Position numbers and translations under genes: made by a program. A DNA stretch of 64,000 nucleotides from Treponema sp. (GTDB taxonomy: Bacteria > Spirochaetota > Spirochaetia > Treponematales > Breznakiellaceae), in contig WQSN01000004.1 of NCBI GenBank assembly GCA_009787835.1, positions 48,420-112,419 of the forward strand, in the 5' to 3' direction. Positions 13,515-48,847 of the stretch are shown here, piece by piece (within the stretch, counting starts at the first letter, position 1; each line of letters opens with the position of its first letter). Below the pieces are notes generated by a model, which was not told where the DNA came from, did no database searches, and saw only the letters and a program-made list of their open reading frames with translations.

Positions 13515-14468
13515 TTAACTGTCCGCCAATATTGGAAGCTTCTCTGCAAATACACACCCGTACTTCCACTTCCCGTCTTTTTTACTGACTACAGCGGTAA
13601 GAGTCTCCCCGCAAAACACAGCGGCGTGCATATTTGGCAGAGAGTTCACCTGCTGATGTGCACAGGAGAATAGCGGCCTATCATTTAAAATTGGATCTAG
13701 AAACCTGCCGTGGATTAGTTTCTCTGCGTCACAAGGCGCAAGTTCAAACCATGGTAATCCAAGAGTTTTTATCACATCCTTGTTTATGGGGAGTAATGAA
13801 TATAAACCGGGAAGCGGGAAATCAGTACCTGTTTCCAATTGCTCATTTCCGTCTGGCAATTTAAAACCTGAAACCTGTGTTCTTACAAGCGATACCAGGT
13901 GTCCCCTGCTTCCCGCAGCAATAGCTATGTCGCGCGCAAGGGAGCGTATGTATGTACCGCTTGAACAGTGAACAAAAATATCGGCGAAAGGAGGTTCCCA
14001 AAGGCGAAGTTCCAGTTTATAAATATTTACCTGTCTTTGTTTCATTTCCAGTATCTGGCCTGATCTGGCAAGTTCGCTTGCGCGTTTTCCATTGATATGT
14101 ATCGCCGAATATGCCGGCGGCGTCTGCATTATCCCGCCTGAAAACCCGGCAAGCGCTTTTTCAGCTTCTTCACGGGAAGGAATATCCGCCCGCGCGATTT
14201 GTTCCCCTTGCGGATCAAGGGTATCGGTTTCTATGCCGAAGCGTATCCTGCCTGTGTACTGTTTATCGCAATGGGTGAACCACGGAACAAGTTTCAGCGC
14301 GCTTCCCGCAAGAACCAGAAGCAGCCCCTGTGCGAATTTGTCCAATGTGCCAGTGTGCCCCACTTTCCCTGTTCCAAGAAAGCGCTTTATATCACGTAAC
14401 GCGTCAAAAGAAGTGATTCCAGGCGGTTTATTCAGTAAAATTAAACCTGAACTGTCAGTATGGCTCAT
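13515..14468 (-). CDS. truB: tRNA pseudouridine-55 synthase TruB
   Basis: 317 residues, normal length. It converts U55 of the tRNA T-loop to pseudouridine. Seen: the N-terminal LLNKPPGITSFDAL, the catalytic motif GHTGTLDKFAQGLL with the essential Asp, and the later GTYIRSLARDI motif; the C-terminus probably holds the small RNA-binding domain. It is last in the rimP-nusA-infB-rbfA-truB cluster, a widespread order linking transcription elongation, translation initiation and ribosome maturation. A gap of 47 bp separates it from rbfA, and rpsO does not follow. Confidence 0.95.
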   Translation of the reverse strand: MSHTDSSGLILLNKPPGITSFDALRDIKRFLGTGKVGHTGTLDKFAQGLLLVLAGSALKLVPWFTHCDKQYTGRIRFGIETDTLDPQGEQIARADIPSREEAEKALAGFSGGIMQTPPAYSAIHINGKRASELARSGQILEMKQRQVNIYKLELRLWEPPFADIFVHCSSGTYIRSLARDIAIAAGSRGHLVSLVRTQVSGFKLPDGNEQLETGTDFPLPGLYSLLPINKDVIKTLGLPWFELAPCDAEKLIHGRFLDPILNDRPLFSCAHQQVNSLPNMHAAVFCGETLTAVVSKKDGKWKYGCVFAEKLPILADS

Positions 14469-14515: not shown

Positions 14516-14878
14516 TTACTCCGCGCCCGCTTCCTTTATATTAAGCTCATCAATTTTTTTTATCATGTCAAAACCGTCGCCTATGCTGGTGTCCGCGTGG
14601 AAGCGCAGGCGGGGAGTTTTACGGATGCGCATTCCGGAACCAAGCTGTGACTGGATAAAACCTGCGGCGCTTTGAAGGCCTTCCGCTCCCCTTTCAATAT
14701 TTTTCTCCCGGACATCGGAAACATATACATCCGCAAAGGACAGGTCTTTGGACACATCCACCCTTGTAATGGAAAGGAATGAGTTTACCCTTTTGTCTTT
14801 TATTTTACCTTCAAGAATGAGGGAGCTGATCTTCTCCTGGATTGACTGACCCAGCCGTTCCGTACGGTATTGAGCCAT
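14516..14878 (-). CDS. rbfA: 30S ribosome-binding factor RbfA
   Basis: 120 residues, typical. RbfA is a KH-fold protein that binds the 30S subunit late in maturation, near helix 1 of 16S rRNA. Seen: the start MAQYRTERLGQSIQEKIS, the strand-helix order with ITRVDVSKDLSFADVYVS, and the end region RIRKTPRLRFHADTSIGDG. It begins one base after the infB stop, so the two are co-translated. Confidence 0.93.
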   Translation of the reverse strand: MAQYRTERLGQSIQEKISSLILEGKIKDKRVNSFLSITRVDVSKDLSFADVYVSDVREKNIERGAEGLQSAAGFIQSQLGSGMRIRKTPRLRFHADTSIGDGFDMIKKIDELNIKEAGAE

Positions 14879-14879
14879 A

Positions 14880-17507
14880 TCAGGACACGCTGAGTTTTCG
14901 CGCTACTTCCACAGTTTCAATAACTTCAAGCATATCGCCTATTTGAATGTCGTCAAAACTATCAAGGCCAATTCCGCACTCATACCCGGCGGCTACTTCG
15001 CGCGCGTCATCCTTAAAGCGCCTGAGGGACGCGATCTTTCCCGAATGGATGACAATCTGGTTTCGTATAACATTAACAGTGCAGCTTCGCTTAACGGTCC
15101 CTGTTAGCACATAACAGCCTGCGATAGTGCCTACCTTTGGAACCTTGAATGTATCGCGGACTTCCACGGTGGCGACAACCTCTTCCTTTGTGTCCGGCTT
15201 TAACATTCCTTCCATCGCCTGCCTTATCTCATCCACGGCTTTATAGATAATATTGTATTTTCTAATATCTACCTTTTCCTGTTCCGCGAGTATTTTCGCC
15301 TTGGGCAGGGGACGGACATTAAAGCTGATAATAATCGCCTTGGAAGCGATAGCAAGGTCAACATCGCCTTCGTTTACAGGACCCGGAAGAGCCTGTATTA
15401 CATGAAGACGGATTTCCTTTGTGGAAAGTTTTTCAAGGCTGGATTTCAGCGCTTCGGCGGACCCCTGAACATCCGCTTTGATGATTACTTTCAGTTCCTG
15501 AATTGTGCCGTCGCTGATCATGTCGTGAAGGTTATCCATTGTAACCTTTCTCATAATCTTGGCGTCTTCAAAACGCTTAAACTCCTGCCGTCTTGAAGAA
15601 TATTCGCGCGCTACTTTTTCATCCGCCACTACCTGCAGAGGATCGCCCGCGTTAGGCATGCCTTCAAAACCCAGTACCTCAACAGGCATGGATGGAGTCG
15701 CATGGGTGAGTTTTTCTCCCTTATCGTTAAAAATCGCACGGACTCTGCCGGGCCAAACGCCCGCTACAAATGAATCTCCTACTGCAAGCGTTCCCCTTTC
15801 CACCATTACTGTCGCGACAATGCCCCGGCCGTGATCGACTTTTGCTTCCAATACCTTCCCTTCCGCGTTGCGCTGGAAATTCGCCTTTAAATCCAGAAGC
15901 TCAGCTTCCAGTAATATTGATTCTATCAGTTTATCAATGCCGACTTTCTGAAGCGCGGACAGTTCTACAAACATATTGGTTCCGCCCCAGTCCTCCGGCA
16001 TTAGCCCCAAATCGGAAAGCTGGCTCTTTACCCTGTCCGGATTCGCTTCGGGCTTATCAATTTTATTAACAGCGACGATAATCGGAACATTCGCGTCTCT
16101 TGCGTGATTGATGGCTTCAATTGTCTGAGGCATTACCCCATCATCCGCCGCCACGACAAGCACGACTATATCCGTTATCTGCGCTCCGCGCGCCCTCATG
16201 CGTGTAAACGCTTCGTGTCCCGGCGTATCCAAAAATGTTATTCTGCCGTGCGGAGTTTCAACCATGTATGCGCCGATATGCTGCGTGATGCCTCCGAACT
16301 CGCCTGACACTACATCGGCTTTTCTGATGGCGTCCAACAGCTTAGTCTTGCCGTGATCAACATGTCCCATAACAGTAACAACCGGAGGGCGCGGCAGAAG
16401 CACCGCGTTATCATCCGAAGCGGTTTCAATTACAGTCTCATCATAGAGGCTTACTATTTTTACATCCGCGCCGAATTCCGAAGCAATAATGGTAGCCGTA
16501 TCCGCGTCAATCTGCTGGTTGATGGTAACCATCTGTCCCATTGTCATTAACTTCGCGATAAGGTCAGACGCTTTCAGATTCATTTTTTTTGCCAGTTCGG
16601 AAACTGAAATGACTTCCATTATGTCAATTGATTTCGGTATTGGGTTGGCGACATGGGTTATTTTTTTCTTGGTCTGGAGGAGTTTTTCCTCCATCTCAAG
16701 TTCTTTTTCCTTGCGGTTATATACCGGTTTTTTGGTCGCGAATTTTCGTTTTGCAGGTCCTTTGCCTTCCGGTATCGGAGACGCAGGCGCGCCGCTCATG
16801 CCGCCGCTTCGGCCCGCTCCTCCTGCGGGAGGACGCTGAAAGCCTCCGCCGCCTGGTTTGTGTCCCGGTTTTGGAGGAAATCCGCCTGTTCTTACATTAC
16901 TGCCCGCAACGCCGCTTTGTGGACGCTGTCCATGAGTGTGGCTGCCGCTCCTGTTATGGCTTCCGCCTTCGGGCTTATGGCTTCTTGATTGCGGACGAGC
17001 CGGTTTTTGATGAGAGCTTCCATGATGACCTACTAGTTTTCCTCCGACCCTGCCGGCAGCGGCTGCGGGTCTTTGCGGCATTTGGAATGAACTTATATGA
17101 GAACCGGACTGCACGCCTGGGGAAACATTACCTGCCTGAGATTTTTCATGCTCTCTTTTTTTACCGGTGTCATCCGCTCGGGCGTCTGATCTTGCATAAG
17201 AGCCTTTGCCGGATGAAGTGCCTGTCTTCCCGGGAGCCGGAGCTGAAGGTTTGGTTTCCGCTGCGGCCGGGCGGTTATTTCCGCCTGTATTGATAACGAT
17301 CTTCGGCTGTATTTTTTTTACCGGTGTTGAGGAAGGTTTTTTCGATATAACAACAACTTTAACTTTTCTGCGCTCTCCCTGTTCCACCTGATTTTTCCCA
17401 TTGGAATTAGCGGAATTGGCGGAACTCACAGAGGCGTCCTGTTCACCCTGTGAATGTTTAATAAGTGGAGCTTTTTGTTTTCTTGTATTGTCAGTTTCTT
17501 CCGCCAT
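14880..17507 (-). CDS. infB: Translation initiation factor IF-2
   Basis: About 875 residues. The first 270 are low-complexity (Gly, Ser, Pro, Lys, His, Arg), as in other long IF-2 forms, followed by a helical charged segment and an IF2_N module ([21 protein letters not shown]). The G domain starts near residue 380: [10 protein letters not shown] (P-loop), [12 protein letters not shown]. Domains II-IV follow, ending in the fMet-tRNA-binding C2 barrel. It places initiator tRNA on the 30S and hydrolyses GTP on subunit joining. I chose ATG 17507 (MAEETDN) because it lies 10 bp after the nusA stop with AGAGGA just upstream; the earlier ATG 17540 is inside nusA. Confidence 0.95.
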
Positions 17508-17517
17508 AAATCCTCTT

Positions 17518-19011
17518 CTATTCCTCCTCTTCGTATTCAAAGCTCAGACCAATTCCGCAGTTTGGACAGGTAGTCATATCCACTGTTATCTTCGCGCCGC
17601 ATTCTGGACATTCATATTCTTCTGTTTCAGTTTCTTCTTCGATTGTTTCATCAGCCACAACCGCTATATCTGCGGACTCTTCTTCGTATACCTCATCTTC
17701 TTCTTCCACAATTTCAACATACTCTTCTATAAGCTTACGCAGCTGATCAAGTTCAGACGGCGACAATCCCCTGGATTCAAGTTCTTCCTGGCTTAACGCG
17801 ATAAAGTCCTCGATATAATCAACGCCTGAGTCAAGCAGTATCCTGGCAAGCCGGCTGTCCACGCCTGGCAGTTCGCTGATGCGTGAAATTTCGTCGCTGA
17901 AATCTTCGGAGTCTCCGAAAAGTTCAGATACAGCGCGCCTGGACTCGGCCGCGATATCCATTTCCGAGAACTGAGATTCAGTTTTCACGTCGATGTTCCA
18001 GTCCACAAGCCTGTTTGCAAGACGCACATTAAGCCCCTGCTTTCCGATTGCCAAAGACAGCATGGAGTCGCTTACAACCGCCAATGCCTGATGTTTGCCT
18101 TCATCCAGTATAATCACATCGCGCACTTCTGCTGGTGAAAGAGCGTTTTTAATGAACCGTCTTGGATCGGGATCGTATTTTAGTATATCAATTTTTTCGC
18201 CTTCAAGTTCCTTGATCACCGCCTGAATACGAACGCCTTTAAGACCGACGCACGCGCCTACAGGATCTACATCTTCGCGGTTTGAATAAACGGCCAGTTT
18301 TGTGCGGAAACCAGGTTCGCGCACAATCTTGTGTATTTCGACTGTTTTGTCGTAAATTTCCGGAACCTCAAGCTCAAAAATTGTACGGACAAATTCAGTA
18401 TGGGTTCTTGATAATACAATCTGAAGCCCGCCTGAATCTTTTTTAACTTCGGCAATCAGGGCTTTTATCCTGTCATTAACATGATAGGTCTCGCGGGGAG
18501 ACTGGAACTTTTTGGGAAGTACGCCTTCCGCTTTTCCAAGATCAACATATATTGTTCCGTTGCGTTCACGCTGGTAATAACCAATTATTATCTCGCCTTC
18601 CTTGTCCTTGAATTCTGAGTAAAGCGAATCCTTTTGTATTTCCCTTATTGTCTGATGCGCTGTCTGTTTCGCGCTCTGGACAGCGACACGGTCGAACTGT
18701 TTTGGATCAAGTTCCACCAGTATTTCATCTCCGACATCCGCGTCCGGATTTAATTCCCTTGCGTCGAATAAATCAATTTCCGTTACAGGATCATAAACTC
18801 CGTCCTGCTCCACTATTTTTTTCTGCGCAAAAATTGAAACTTCCATATTATCTTCATCAAATCTGACAACTGCGTTATCTACACTGCCGAAACGGTGTTT
18901 ATATGCCGCTCTCAATGTTTCTTCGATAGTGCGCAGTATAAGCTCTTCAGGAATTCCTCTATCCTGATTAATTTGACGGATTACCTGCGACATGTCTATT
19001 CCCAACTTCAT
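17518..19011 (-). CDS. nusA: Transcription elongation/termination factor NusA with C-terminal zinc ribbon
   Basis: 497 residues: N-terminal RNA polymerase-binding domain (1-125), S1 domain (about 135-200), two KH domains (200-345), then one helix-hairpin-helix-type repeat (ELPGVDSRLARILLDSGVDY), a strongly acidic linker and a C-terminal zinc-ribbon-like CPECGAKITVDMTTCPNCG. The final ribbon is unusual for NusA. It modulates pausing, termination and antitermination. The ATG overlaps the rimP stop (ATGA), but AAAGGAGG abuts it directly; TTG 19005, two codons further in, has ideal spacing and may be the real start. Confidence 0.94.
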   Translation of the reverse strand: MKLGIDMSQVIRQINQDRGIPEELILRTIEETLRAAYKHRFGSVDNAVVRFDEDNMEVSIFAQKKIVEQDGVYDPVTEIDLFDARELNPDADVGDEILVELDPKQFDRVAVQSAKQTAHQTIREIQKDSLYSEFKDKEGEIIIGYYQRERNGTIYVDLGKAEGVLPKKFQSPRETYHVNDRIKALIAEVKKDSGGLQIVLSRTHTEFVRTIFELEVPEIYDKTVEIHKIVREPGFRTKLAVYSNREDVDPVGACVGLKGVRIQAVIKELEGEKIDILKYDPDPRRFIKNALSPAEVRDVIILDEGKHQALAVVSDSMLSLAIGKQGLNVRLANRLVDWNIDVKTESQFSEMDIAAESRRAVSELFGDSEDFSDEISRISELPGVDSRLARILLDSGVDYIEDFIALSQEELESRGLSPSELDQLRKLIEEYVEIVEEEDEVYEEESADIAVVADETIEEETETEEYECPECGAKITVDMTTCPNCGIGLSFEYEEEE

Positions 19012-19532
19012 CCTCCTTTGAAAGCCGCAGGCGCAGCCTGCTTTTTAATGAGCGGATCCTGCGTTTCCCGCGAGGAATCCAGTTTTGCTTTCGCGATAAT
19101 ATCAAATTCCAGTCTGACTGTTTCTGTAACTGTTCTTAACACAATTCCCTTTTCATCGGCGGCTTCCAATATTCCGGCCGTCCATTCTGTTATATCTGTA
19201 CGGTAACACCGCACTCTCCTTCCAATATAATGGGCAAACTCCGCGCCGTCTTTAATGGTACGGTCTATCCCCGGCGAAGATACTTCCATGTAAACATCCT
19301 GCCCGCTGAAAGCCAGTTCCAGCCGCGGAGTAACAGCGCGATGCGCTTTAGTGCAGTCATCCGTACCAATTGACTTGCCGTTATAAATAACAAGCCTAAC
19401 CTGGACGCTCCCTTTATGCCTGGAAACCGTTATTTCAACAAGGTTAAAACCCAATCCGCCAAGAATCTCTTCCAGCGGCTCCCGTAAAGAAACGATATCA
19501 GGGCTTTGCAGGTTCTTACCGGTATATTGCAT
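19008..19532 (-). CDS. rimP: Ribosome maturation factor RimP
   Basis: 174 residues, normal. RimP helps 30S assembly. The N-terminal domain (GLGFNLVEITVSRHKGSVQVRLVIY) and the family pattern LEVSSPGIDR, here MEVSSPGIDRTIK, are clear, and the C-terminal part is a small Sm-like barrel. ATG 19532 has GGAG 5 nt upstream. It is the first gene of the rimP-nusA-infB-rbfA-truB operon, and a promoter and hairpin lie just before it. The tail (FKGG, stop) overlaps the nusA start. Confidence 0.94.
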   Translation of the reverse strand: MQYTGKNLQSPDIVSLREPLEEILGGLGFNLVEITVSRHKGSVQVRLVIYNGKSIGTDDCTKAHRAVTPRLELAFSGQDVYMEVSSPGIDRTIKDGAEFAHYIGRRVRCYRTDITEWTAGILEAADEKGIVLRTVTETVRLEFDIIAKAKLDSSRETQDPLIKKQAAPAAFKGG

Positions 19533-19546
19533 CGTTTCTCCAAACT

Positions 19547-19578
19547 AAAAAAAAAGAGCTCCCAGGAAGCCCTTTTTT
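19547..19578 (-). terminator. Terminator-like hairpin in the rimP-nusA operon leader (candidate attenuator)
   Basis: On the minus strand A6-GGGCU pairs with AGCUC-U9 around a 7-nt loop, giving a stem of about 11 bp with one G-U and a run of nine T. It lies downstream of the operon promoter and upstream of the rimP Shine-Dalgarno, so transcription from that promoter must pass it. It would also stop read-through from the upstream kinase gene. Confidence 0.65.
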
Positions 19579-19601
19579 AAATGAAAAATAATACTGTCTG
19601 T

Positions 19602-19630
19602 AGCATACCGCCATTTGAAAAATATGTCAA
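19602..19630 (-). promoter_or_regulatory. Promoter of the rimP-nusA-infB-rbfA-truB operon
   Basis: Minus strand: TTGACA (perfect), 17-bp spacer, TATGCT. The predicted transcription start is near 19595, giving a leader of about 62 nt that contains the hairpin at 19547-19578. Confidence 0.7.
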
Positions 19631-19681
19631 GCGTTGTACGGAAATTTTTTATGAAGGGCATAGCAGCAAGAAGCCTTCAAA

Positions 19682-22600
19682 TCAATAAGGAAACAAATCC
19701 TGGGCGGTAATGGACGCTTCTTCAAAATCACTGTGCAGCAAATGTTCTGCTATAATATTGAGCCGTTCCTTTATGGCAGGCGACCATGATACCTGCTTTA
19801 ATTCCGCCAGTGTTTCCTTGGCAAGCTTTTTATCATATCTGGCGCAGGCGGCCTGTATTATTATCAGTTTTTCACGCAATAAATTTTTATATTCTTTTGA
19901 ATTTTCATCAACTGATTCAATGTCTTCACTCTCTGATTTTTTCTTATTCTTGTTTATTACATTCTGTAACGAGTTCAGGAACACAGGAATTTCAGCTAAT
20001 ATAAGATCAATATTCTTCTCCCTTCCCGCCATTTCAAGCTTTAACGCTTCATCGGAAAGCTGCTGCTCTCCAATATTTGCCAAAGCGCTTTTCATTGCAT
20101 GTACATTAATTACAAGCATGGAAAAATCATCTGTCCTGCGGCATTTATTCTGGTAAATAGAATCAATCAATGCAAGCGCTTTTTCCGCGTCACGGACAAA
20201 AATTTCGGCAAGCTGCGGATTTACAGGAGTATCCTTGTTAGTATCATGGCTTGTGATTTTCTGCTGTCTGGCCGCTTCAATAACATCGGTTGTCTGCTTG
20301 TCACGTATCATCCTGTTCAGCACCGAATTCATCTGCCGGATATCAATCGGTTTGGAAATAAAACCGTCAAAACCGTTTTTAAGAAAAATCTCCGCCTGTC
20401 CTGCGAGCGCGTTTGCGGTTAACGCTATTATTGGGTTTGCGTAACCAAGACTCCTGATAATTCTGACAGATTCTATCCCATCCATTCTTGGCATCATGTG
20501 ATCCATAAAAATGACATCGTATATTTTACCGTCCCTGATTTTATCAATCGCTTCAAATCCGCTTAAAGCGGTATCAATTGATATTCCATAGGGGCTTAAT
20601 AGCCCTCTTGCTACATACAGATTTGTTTCAACATCATCCACAACCAAAACGCTGCCGTAGGGCATAAATTCCCGCGTTATCTGCGCATTTCTGGATTTTG
20701 AAATTTTTCCAAGATTTAACTGCTCCAGATTATTGGCCCATTCCTTTCCAATCGCTTCAAAACCCGCGTCCCCCTGCGGAAGGCTCACGGTAAAAGTTGA
20801 TCCCATGCCTGGTATGCTTTCTACGGAAATATCGCCGTTCATCATGTGAATCAATGTCCGCGTTATATTCATGCCCAACCCGGTTCCTTCGGTTGTGCGG
20901 TTAATATCAAGATTAAAGCGCGCAAATTTTTCGCCGAGTTTGTTTACCTGCTCTTCGGTCATCCCCTGCCCCGTGTCGCTGATGCGGAAAATAAGAGTCA
21001 CATCCGTGTTCTCGCTTCTTTCCTGCGGCTCTATATGGACAGACATATTAATCATTCCTTCGTCGGTATATTTGAAAGCATTGGAAAGAAGATTATTTAA
21101 AATTTGCTTAATACGAAGCTCATCCCCAATCAGCACGGAAGGCACGGTTTCACTTACAATTAATTTAAACTCAATGGGTTTGCTTTCAAAACGCAAAATA
21201 TTCAACTGCACAGTATCGTGAATAAGTGAGGCTACATCATATTGGGAATTCGTAAGTTCAAGTTTGCCGGCTTCAATTTTTGACAGATCAAGTATATCAT
21301 TTATAATTCCGAGCAGCATATCGCCTGAATTATAAATCCTGTACAGCGCTTCCTTTGCGTTCTGAGGAAGAGAATTATCCTGCAGCTGAATTTCAGTAAT
21401 ACCCAAAATCGCGTTCATTGGAGTGCGGATTTCATGGCTCATTCTGGCAAGGAAGTCGCTTTTCGCCCTGTTGTTCTCTTCGGCGATTTCCGCCCTGCGC
21501 ATTTCAGTTATCATTGCCTTAACTTCCCTCAAGTCCCTGATAAATCCGGCAAGCGCGTAATCGCCCCTGAATTTAACGCGGACAAGAGTAACTTCAGTCG
21601 GGATCGCTTCCTTTTTTTTATTCTGATGTATACATTCAAAACTGCTACGACCTTCTTCAAACGCTTCATCCGAGTATCTTATGATTTTTGCGGATGATAA
21701 TTCACCGTCCGGCTGATACTCGGGCAGGAATTCAAAAACACCGTTGATAAATTCATTTTTATTTGATAATCCAAGAAGCCTTACGGTTTCCTGATTACAC
21801 GCGAGAATTTTATTTTTATTGTCAACCATGAAGGAGCTAAGGGGAGTAGTGTCAAATAAAACCTGAGTGTACTCATCAGCCTCGCGCATTTTCGCCATTA
21901 CTGATTTCATATCACGCAAATCACGCGCGTATTGGGCTACTATATATTCCTTTCTGAAACTGACACGGACCAAAGTTACCTCGCACAGTATATCTTCCCC
22001 GTTCAGTTTGCGGTACAGCCACTCAAACCGGCAGTAACCCGTATAAAACGCCTTTTTGAGACATTCAATATTTTTCTCAAATGACAGCCTGCCGTCAGGC
22101 TGGTATTCGGGAGACAGTTCAAAAAATCTTTTGCAGTATTCTTTTTTGCCTGATATATCAAACAATTTAAGTGATTCTTCATTGCAGTCAATCGGAATAA
22201 AATATTTATCCCACAGGATCATGCAAAGGGGCGTCGCGTCCAGCATAATCTGCGTCCGCTCTTCTGCTTTCTTTTTGGCGGAAACAATGCTCAGAAGTAT
22301 CGCGCAGAGGGCCGAAGCCAGGATCGCGCCCAGCAGAATCAGGATATACGCTATATCATTTACGCTCTTATAATATTCCTTTGAATACGCTATAAGCGCC
22401 ATGTACCAGCCGTTATTGAGCTTGCGGACAAATAAAACAGAGGTATTACCGTTATAATCAGCCGCCTTCCGCTCGGAAATTTCTTTTCCCGCGAGCAGAT
22501 CATTCTGGATATTAACGCCGTCGTTCATCTGGGACAGATGCCTGCCAATATACGCCGGGACAGGATGCGCAATCACATTGAAATTACTGTCCAGCAGTAT

Positions 22601-47767: not shown

Positions 47768-48847
47768 CTATTGAATTTTCAGCGTTGACAGGGAAATAAT
47801 CGCGAATAAACCTCCGATAATCCAGAATCGGATAACCACCTTTGTTTCCGCCCAGCCTGAAAGCTCATAATGATGATGGAGCGGCGCCATTTTAAATACC
47901 CTTTTTTTCCTGAGCTTGTAAGAAATTACCTGAATAACAACCGAAGCGATTTCCAGGACAAATACTCCTCCGATAATGAAAAGCAGTATTTCTTTTTTTA
48001 TCATTAAGGACACTACAGCGACAGCGCCGCCGAGAGCCAGGCTGCCTGTATCGCCCATAAATACTTCCGCAGGCGGCGCGTTGAAAAACAGAAATCCCAC
48101 GCACGCGCCCGCAGCCGCTAAACAGAAAACTGTTAACTCTCCGGCTCCGGGAATATAAGGTATTCCCAAATAATCGGAATAATCAACGCGTCCCGTTATA
48201 TAGGTAAGAACCGCAAGCGTTAAAAAGACCAGGATCAAAAGACCCGCCAACAGACCATCAAGACCGTCAGAAAAATTAACAGCGTTCGACTCTCCTACAA
48301 TCAGAAGTACCGCGAACGGAACCCACAGCCAGCCCATATCAGCTACCGGGTTTTTGAAAAAAGGAATATATAAAGCGGTAGAATTCTCTTCTCCCGTAAA
48401 ATACATGATTAAAACGACAGTAAGCGCTACCGCAAACTGCGCTAAAAGCTTTGCCCATACTGGAAGACCCGCGGAATTATGGCGCGTAACTTTCAGATAA
48501 TCATCGGTAAAGCCAATCGCGCCGAAGGCGAGAAACGCTCCCATGACTATCCACACTGATTTGTCCTTTAAATCCCCCCAGAACAGCATCGCAATGACTA
48601 CGGAAAGGATAATAAATATTCCTCCCATTGTAGGGGTTCCTGTTTTTTGCAGATGAGTCTGCGGACCGTCTTCACGCACAAACTGGCCGATTTTAAGCCT
48701 TCGAAGGAGTTCAATTATTTTATTACCAAAGATAAAACAGATTAGCAATGTGGTAAGGGCCGCGAACGCTCCGCGGATTGTCAGGTAGCTGAATACCCGG
48801 AAAGGAGTAAAATAACTGAACAAAAAATCAAAAAACTCAAGAACCAT
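47768..48847 (-). CDS. mraY: Phospho-MurNAc-pentapeptide translocase MraY
   Basis: 359 residues, about ten transmembrane helices. It makes lipid I from UDP-MurNAc-pentapeptide and undecaprenyl phosphate. Motifs: GTPTMGGIFI, GFTDDYLKV (Asp-Asp), NAVNFSDGLDGL, FMGDTGSLALGG and PLHHHYELSGW. It overlaps the murF end by 11 bp. murD, usually next, is missing. Confidence 0.96.
   Translation of the reverse strand: MVLEFFDFLFSYFTPFRVFSYLTIRGAFAALTTLLICFIFGNKIIELLRRLKIGQFVREDGPQTHLQKTGTPTMGGIFIILSVVIAMLFWGDLKDKSVWIVMGAFLAFGAIGFTDDYLKVTRHNSAGLPVWAKLLAQFAVALTVVLIMYFTGEENSTALYIPFFKNPVADMGWLWVPFAVLLIVGESNAVNFSDGLDGLLAGLLILVFLTLAVLTYITGRVDYSDYLGIPYIPGAGELTVFCLAAAGACVGFLFFNAPPAEVFMGDTGSLALGGAVAVVSLMIKKEILLFIIGGVFVLEIASVVIQVISYKLRKKRVFKMAPLHHHYELSGWAETKVVIRFWIIGGLFAIISLSTLKIQ

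Follow-up and report, generated by a model that had tools for sequence, protein, structure and literature searches.

A rimP-leader-type attenuator is the probable role of a promoter-proximal hairpin upstream of rimP-nusA-infB in Treponema and related spirochaetes

Does the terminator-like hairpin that separates the rimP-nusA-infB promoter from rimP, the leading gene of the operon, in Treponema sp. (contig WQSN01000004.1) control transcription of that operon, and is the controlling signal NusA, one of the proteins that the operon encodes? A preliminary description of this DNA, made from its letters and open reading frames, had suggested both. We examined the suggestion in the window, which is the whole stretch of 64,000 nucleotides that was analysed (positions 48,420 to 112,419 of the contig; coordinates below count from its first letter), and in the genomes of related spirochaetes. 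The reading that best explains the data, and to which we give a probability of about 70%, is that the leader acts as a rimP-leader-type transcription attenuator, in which the share of polymerases stopped most likely rises with free NusA.

The sequence bears out the order of elements that had been described, from promoter through hairpin to the rimP ribosome-binding site (Table 1). The promoter, TTGACA-17-TATGCT, is present on the minus strand at 19630-19602, and from the position of its -10 element we infer a transcription start at about 19598-19595 (GACA). Between this predicted start and the A-tract of the hairpin lie 17 to 20 nt, and about 23 to 26 nt separate it from the GC core, which makes the earlier estimate of "within about 20 nt" a fair one. 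The hairpin is laid out as AAAAAA-GGGCTTC-CTG-GGAGCTC-TTTTTT, with a GC core at 19572-19556 that is extended on both sides by the A6 and T6 runs, and the nine T reported for it are in place. Its stem is modest, with one or two G-U pairs and a loop of three bases. Folding, which had been proposed as a check, gave a minimum free energy of -13.1 kcal/mol for the hairpin and -16.0 kcal/mol for the whole leader (z -2.1 against shuffles). The predicted leader is about 65 nt long, with termination predicted about 50 nt past the start.

Table 1. Leader elements and operon genes in the window, with the evidence for each.
Feature	Position	Strand	Evidence
-35 element TTGACA	19630-19625	-	Read from sequence; promoter scan; TTGAC with hairpin upstream of rimP in 81/90 family loci
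-10 element TATGCT, spacer 17 nt	19607-19602	-	Sequence; scan; -10 columns prominent in family profile
Expected transcript 5' segment GACAGTATTATTTTTCATTT	19598-19579	-	Start inferred from -10 position; genus alignment
Terminator hairpin AAAAAAGGGCTTCCTGGGAGCTCTTTTTT	19578-19550	-	Fold; scan; conserved upstream of rimP
Nine-T tract, predicted release site, overlapping the A/T-extended stem	19555-19547	-	Sequence; T run in relatives, median 7
Shine-Dalgarno GGAG, 5 nt upstream of rimP ATG (19532-19530)	19541-19538	-	Sequence
rimP	19008-19532	-	PF02576, E 7e-12; NCBIfam RimP models
nusA, with C-terminal zinc ribbon	17518-19011	-	TIGR01953, 417.6 bits; Pfam NusA_N, S1, KH_5, Zn_ribbon_3
infB (IF2)	14880-17540	-	Pfam IF-2, IF2_N
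rbfA	14516-14878	-	PF02033
truB	13515-14468	-	PF01509

Searches with Pfam and NCBIfam upheld the identity of the operon as rimP-nusA-infB and extended the gene order downstream of the leader to rbfA and truB. On the other side of the leader lies a gene for a hybrid histidine kinase, on the same strand and with its stop at 19682; a perfect TTGACA-16-TATAAT on the plus strand (21280-21307) runs antisense within this kinase gene. The NusA encoded in the window is closed by a zinc ribbon, CPECGAKITVDMTTCPNCG (residues about 464-488), which is preceded by an acidic stretch. Pairs of CxxC at the NusA C terminus were found in all 53 loci examined in the order, three of them with longer spacing, and a literature search turned up no paper centred on such a feature.

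Taken singly, the promoter and terminator matches do not rise above chance. The promoter scan alone gave 48 matches in the region compared with 40 in shuffles, and the terminator scan alone gave 22 compared with 20, with no clear excess in either case. The combination is much more restricted: TTGAC, a hairpin (dG < -9) and a T run occurred together in the 200 nt upstream of one of 50 window genes, and that gene is rimP. A chance arrangement becomes untenable because the leader is conserved among relatives. In the window's family, rimP was located in 129 of 145 genomes, and leaders were read from 90 loci; comparison of these leaders, as the preliminary description had advised, found the same TTGAC promoter, hairpin and T run upstream of rimP in 81. 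The family profile has prominent -35 and -10 columns, of which TTGAC is imposed by the search itself, and the sequence farther upstream is low in information. When the promoter was left out of the criterion (dG at or below -8, at least five T, no more than 150 nt from rimP), a hairpin and T run remained at 74 of the 90 family loci. Applied more widely, to loci where rimP could be placed by BLAST, the same criterion found them at 24/24 loci of the order outside the family, 9/10 of the class and 13/26 of the remaining phylum, compared with a background rate of 4 among 51 window genes.

Not every relative carries the leader. Several family loci lack it under the promoter, hairpin and T criteria together, and in some of the 16 loci negative by the promoter-free criterion a hairpin is visible that is interrupted or more distant. 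Four loci of a single genus, g18 (L021, L024, L047 and L055), have no promoter-hairpin leader, and rimP there seems to lie close behind another gene; this absence may represent a natural loss of the attenuator. Inspection by eye found a weaker hairpin, its T run interrupted, at three loci that BLAST left unplaced (L154-156), from a small-genome genus of the class, and found no T-tailed hairpin upstream of rimP in one member of the order with a genome of 1.14 Mb (L128), compared with 24/24 at the other loci of the order.

Run on the alignment of the window's genus, RNAalifold recovered no more than the A/U stem plus two GC pairs and showed little covariation; unequal lengths of the inner stems, which hamper their alignment, are the probable cause. 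The same alignment places AGTATAGTTTTTCATTT, strongly kept within the genus, just past the expected start; no function was found for it. A -10-like motif that follows the start in the genus (TATAGT, TATTAT) was considered as a promoter-proximal pause site and rejected as too variable.

An element of this kind is already on record. Naville and Gautheret (2010, PMC2965389) described the rimP-leader, which they ranked first in ubiquity among predicted transcription attenuators. It is a GGGc...gCCC terminator with a T stretch in the 5' UTR of rimP-nusA-infB, and NusA is its favoured regulator; the idea of a NusA-feedback attenuator is in this sense already published. The leader in the window shares with the rimP-leader its operon, its place, a hairpin starting with GGGC, the T stretch and closeness to the rimP start. 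Its Rho-independent hairpin stands in the 5' UTR of rimP, the first gene of the operon, and the T run ends 14 nt before the rimP ATG, where rimP-leader terminators lie 4-130 nt from the gene start. The corresponding stem in the window reads GGGC...GCTC, in which a G-U pair accounts for the single departure from the published signature, and most relatives in the genus have GGGC...CCC. On the grounds of position, architecture and operon, the leader fits the rimP-leader kind. One difference lies outside the window's genus. The general rimP-leader motif includes no larger conserved element, and a tandem terminator with an antiterminator is described only in some Gammaproteobacteria (PMC2965389), whereas in relatives from other genera the leader has a 5' segment that is both conserved and complementary to the loop. 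The rimP-leader of S. agalactiae is also very short. There a short transcript ends at +31, at a predicted intrinsic terminator for which NusA feedback was proposed (PMC4448216); its end was mapped by RNA-seq at 31 nt, compared with a predicted end at about 50 nt in the window.

We do not claim membership in Rfam family RF01770 (rimP) for this leader, because the RF01770 model, which has 102 positions and the same gene context, does not match it. RF01770 is absent among Rfam matches to 19400-19800 of the window with E up to 10, and it scored above its gathering cut-off in 0 of 140 family genomes; among the sub-cut-off matches listed for those genomes, none coincides with a located rimP. Other Rfam families gave low-scoring and unrelated matches to the leader, all below their gathering scores. 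The copy in the window is a newly recognised spirochaete case of a known attenuator, and mostly of an already-described kind.

Does the hairpin serve the operon behind it or the gene before it? The kinase gene lies on the same strand, and a clear T-tailed hairpin was not seen between 19682 and 19630, so that the hairpin might be the kinase gene's ordinary terminator, placed after the rimP promoter by accident. We consider this extremely improbable and rejected it, as the rimP promoter sits between the kinase gene and the hairpin, and the hairpin is kept where the near neighbour points the other way: by an ORF-based estimate, 23 of the 60 family loci that have an upstream ORF within 250 nt, two of the 23 in the window's genus, have the closest such ORF on the opposite strand. 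It is hardly more probable that the hairpin works post-transcriptionally, by affecting how stable the mRNA is or how readily ribosomes reach their binding site at rimP. Such a role would suit a hairpin that lies 14 nt from the ATG and near the ribosome-binding site, with which the leader pairs weakly in the full fold, but it does not account well for a T tract kept behind the stem throughout, or for a hairpin-to-ATG distance that varies among relatives from a few nt to more than 100 nt, a spread better suited to termination than to gating of a ribosome site. Retention across the order and class, near-absence at other genes and persistence beside apparently divergent neighbours instead make a regulatory premature terminator of the rimP operon well supported as the predicted function of the hairpin, and with it the attenuator that had been suggested for this leader.

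If the leader is such an attenuator, RNA polymerase would start near 19597 and encounter the intrinsic terminator about 50 nt on. Part of the polymerases would halt within the T tract, with release of a short RNA, and the remainder would read through into rimP-nusA-infB-rbfA-truB. Because NusA stimulates termination at such hairpins, the stopped share would most likely go up with free NusA, placing negative feedback on NusA and, through the shared mRNA, also on RimP and IF2. That NusA sets the level of termination in treponemes is likely by analogy, with NusA dependence of the spirochaete leader carried over from other phyla. According to a 2025 review (PMC12288461, citing Mondal 2016), NusA of B. 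subtilis controls its own synthesis by stimulating termination in the leader of its operon, which likewise has an intrinsic terminator; NusA dependence was shown there and is predicted for the window. The B. subtilis leader is 180 nt, according to work cited in PMC2965389, compared with the predicted 65 nt or so in the window. In E. coli, NusA represses its operon, again by a citation in PMC2965389.

The same hairpin could lower or tune operon output without NusA feedback, by terminating at a fixed level or in response to RimP, NusG, nucleotide pools, ppGpp or translation factors. Termination at the window hairpin could, for example, be constitutive. All of the conservation evidence fits this explanation equally well, and the coevolution of 5' segment and loop in relatives permits control at the level of the RNA. 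Against it stands the leader-mediated autoregulation of NusA, which, in the accounts given by PMC12288461 and PMC2965389, is established for B. subtilis and has support in E. coli, and no alternative signal has comparable support; we regard a terminator indifferent to NusA as unlikely.

Many family leaders outside the window's genus are predicted to start with GACAGTCGGAGATTC or a variant of it, and the complement of this 5' segment is found in the terminator loop together with the opening bases of the 3' arm. The paired sequences differ between loci, as in GTCGGA/TCCGAC (L013), GTCGAAC/GTTCGAC (L043), TTCGGAA/TTCCGAA (L007), GTCTGAA/TTCAGAC (L088) and GTCTAA/TTAGAC (L085). When segments and loops were swapped between leaders, a leader's own pair was more complementary than swapped pairs among 66 distinct leaders (z 6.7), among 32 core-motif leaders (z 6.3, 0/50,000 shuffles), with one leader for each of 38 genera (mean z 4.5, largest p 0.0033) and with swaps kept within genera (p 0.035). 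These z values serve for guidance and should not be read as probabilities, since relatedness partly remains in the shuffles and the pairs were scored under several different schemes. No complementarity signal came from the promoter or from the segment following the 5' element in these swap tests. We also fixed one register by a rule, devised when the pairs were already known, that sets the bases following ACA in the element against the five that precede the 3' arm and the first two within it. This register gave an excess of z 3.1 (6/3,000 shuffles); when it was shifted in six ways, one shift (+3) rose to z 2.2 and none of the other five exceeded zero. In the rule-set register only 9 of 61 distinct pairs match at six or seven of seven positions, and pairing is poor in L079, L080, L082 and L084.

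Folds of the nascent RNA, taken before the 3' arm emerges, pair the element with the loop region in ten of ten examples (whole-fold energies of -7.7 to -15.1 kcal/mol), whereas the finished transcript favours the terminator. A kinetic antiterminator, or a pseudoknot with the loop, would be in keeping with pairing of this kind. We tentatively propose, as a possibility that is open to considerable doubt, that in many treponemes of the family the first bases of the transcript (GACAGTCGGA, GACATTCGGAA, GACAGTCTGAA and others) pair with the loop and the start of the 3' arm, forming a 5'-end antiterminator or pseudoknot that would delay the terminator, and that NusA would shift the balance. A 5' segment that is complementary to the loop and partly changes with it seems to be undescribed. 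A regulon sharing the element was considered and rejected: exact matches to GACAGTCGRAGATTC lie at rimP leaders (two at contig ends), and the sole exception, in a genome of the same genus, falls at an unrelated position. In the window, the best duplex between 5' segment and loop is 3 bp, and in the window's genus, which carries AGTATAGTTTTTCATTT in place of the loop-pairing element, the coevolution signal is not significant (p 0.07).

The comparison documents the putative rimP-nusA-infB attenuator across a spirochaete order and class, where the dedicated Rfam model misses it, and a distribution of this breadth supports an ancient origin for feedback control of a core transcription factor. The alignment across the family also provides a compact natural system, about 50 nt in length, for probing the role of NusA and the pairing between 5' end and loop. 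If that pairing is real, these treponemes would have a variant of the rimP-leader with a switch built into its 5' end, which would have been lost, or replaced by AGTATAGTTTTTCATTT, in the genus of the window.
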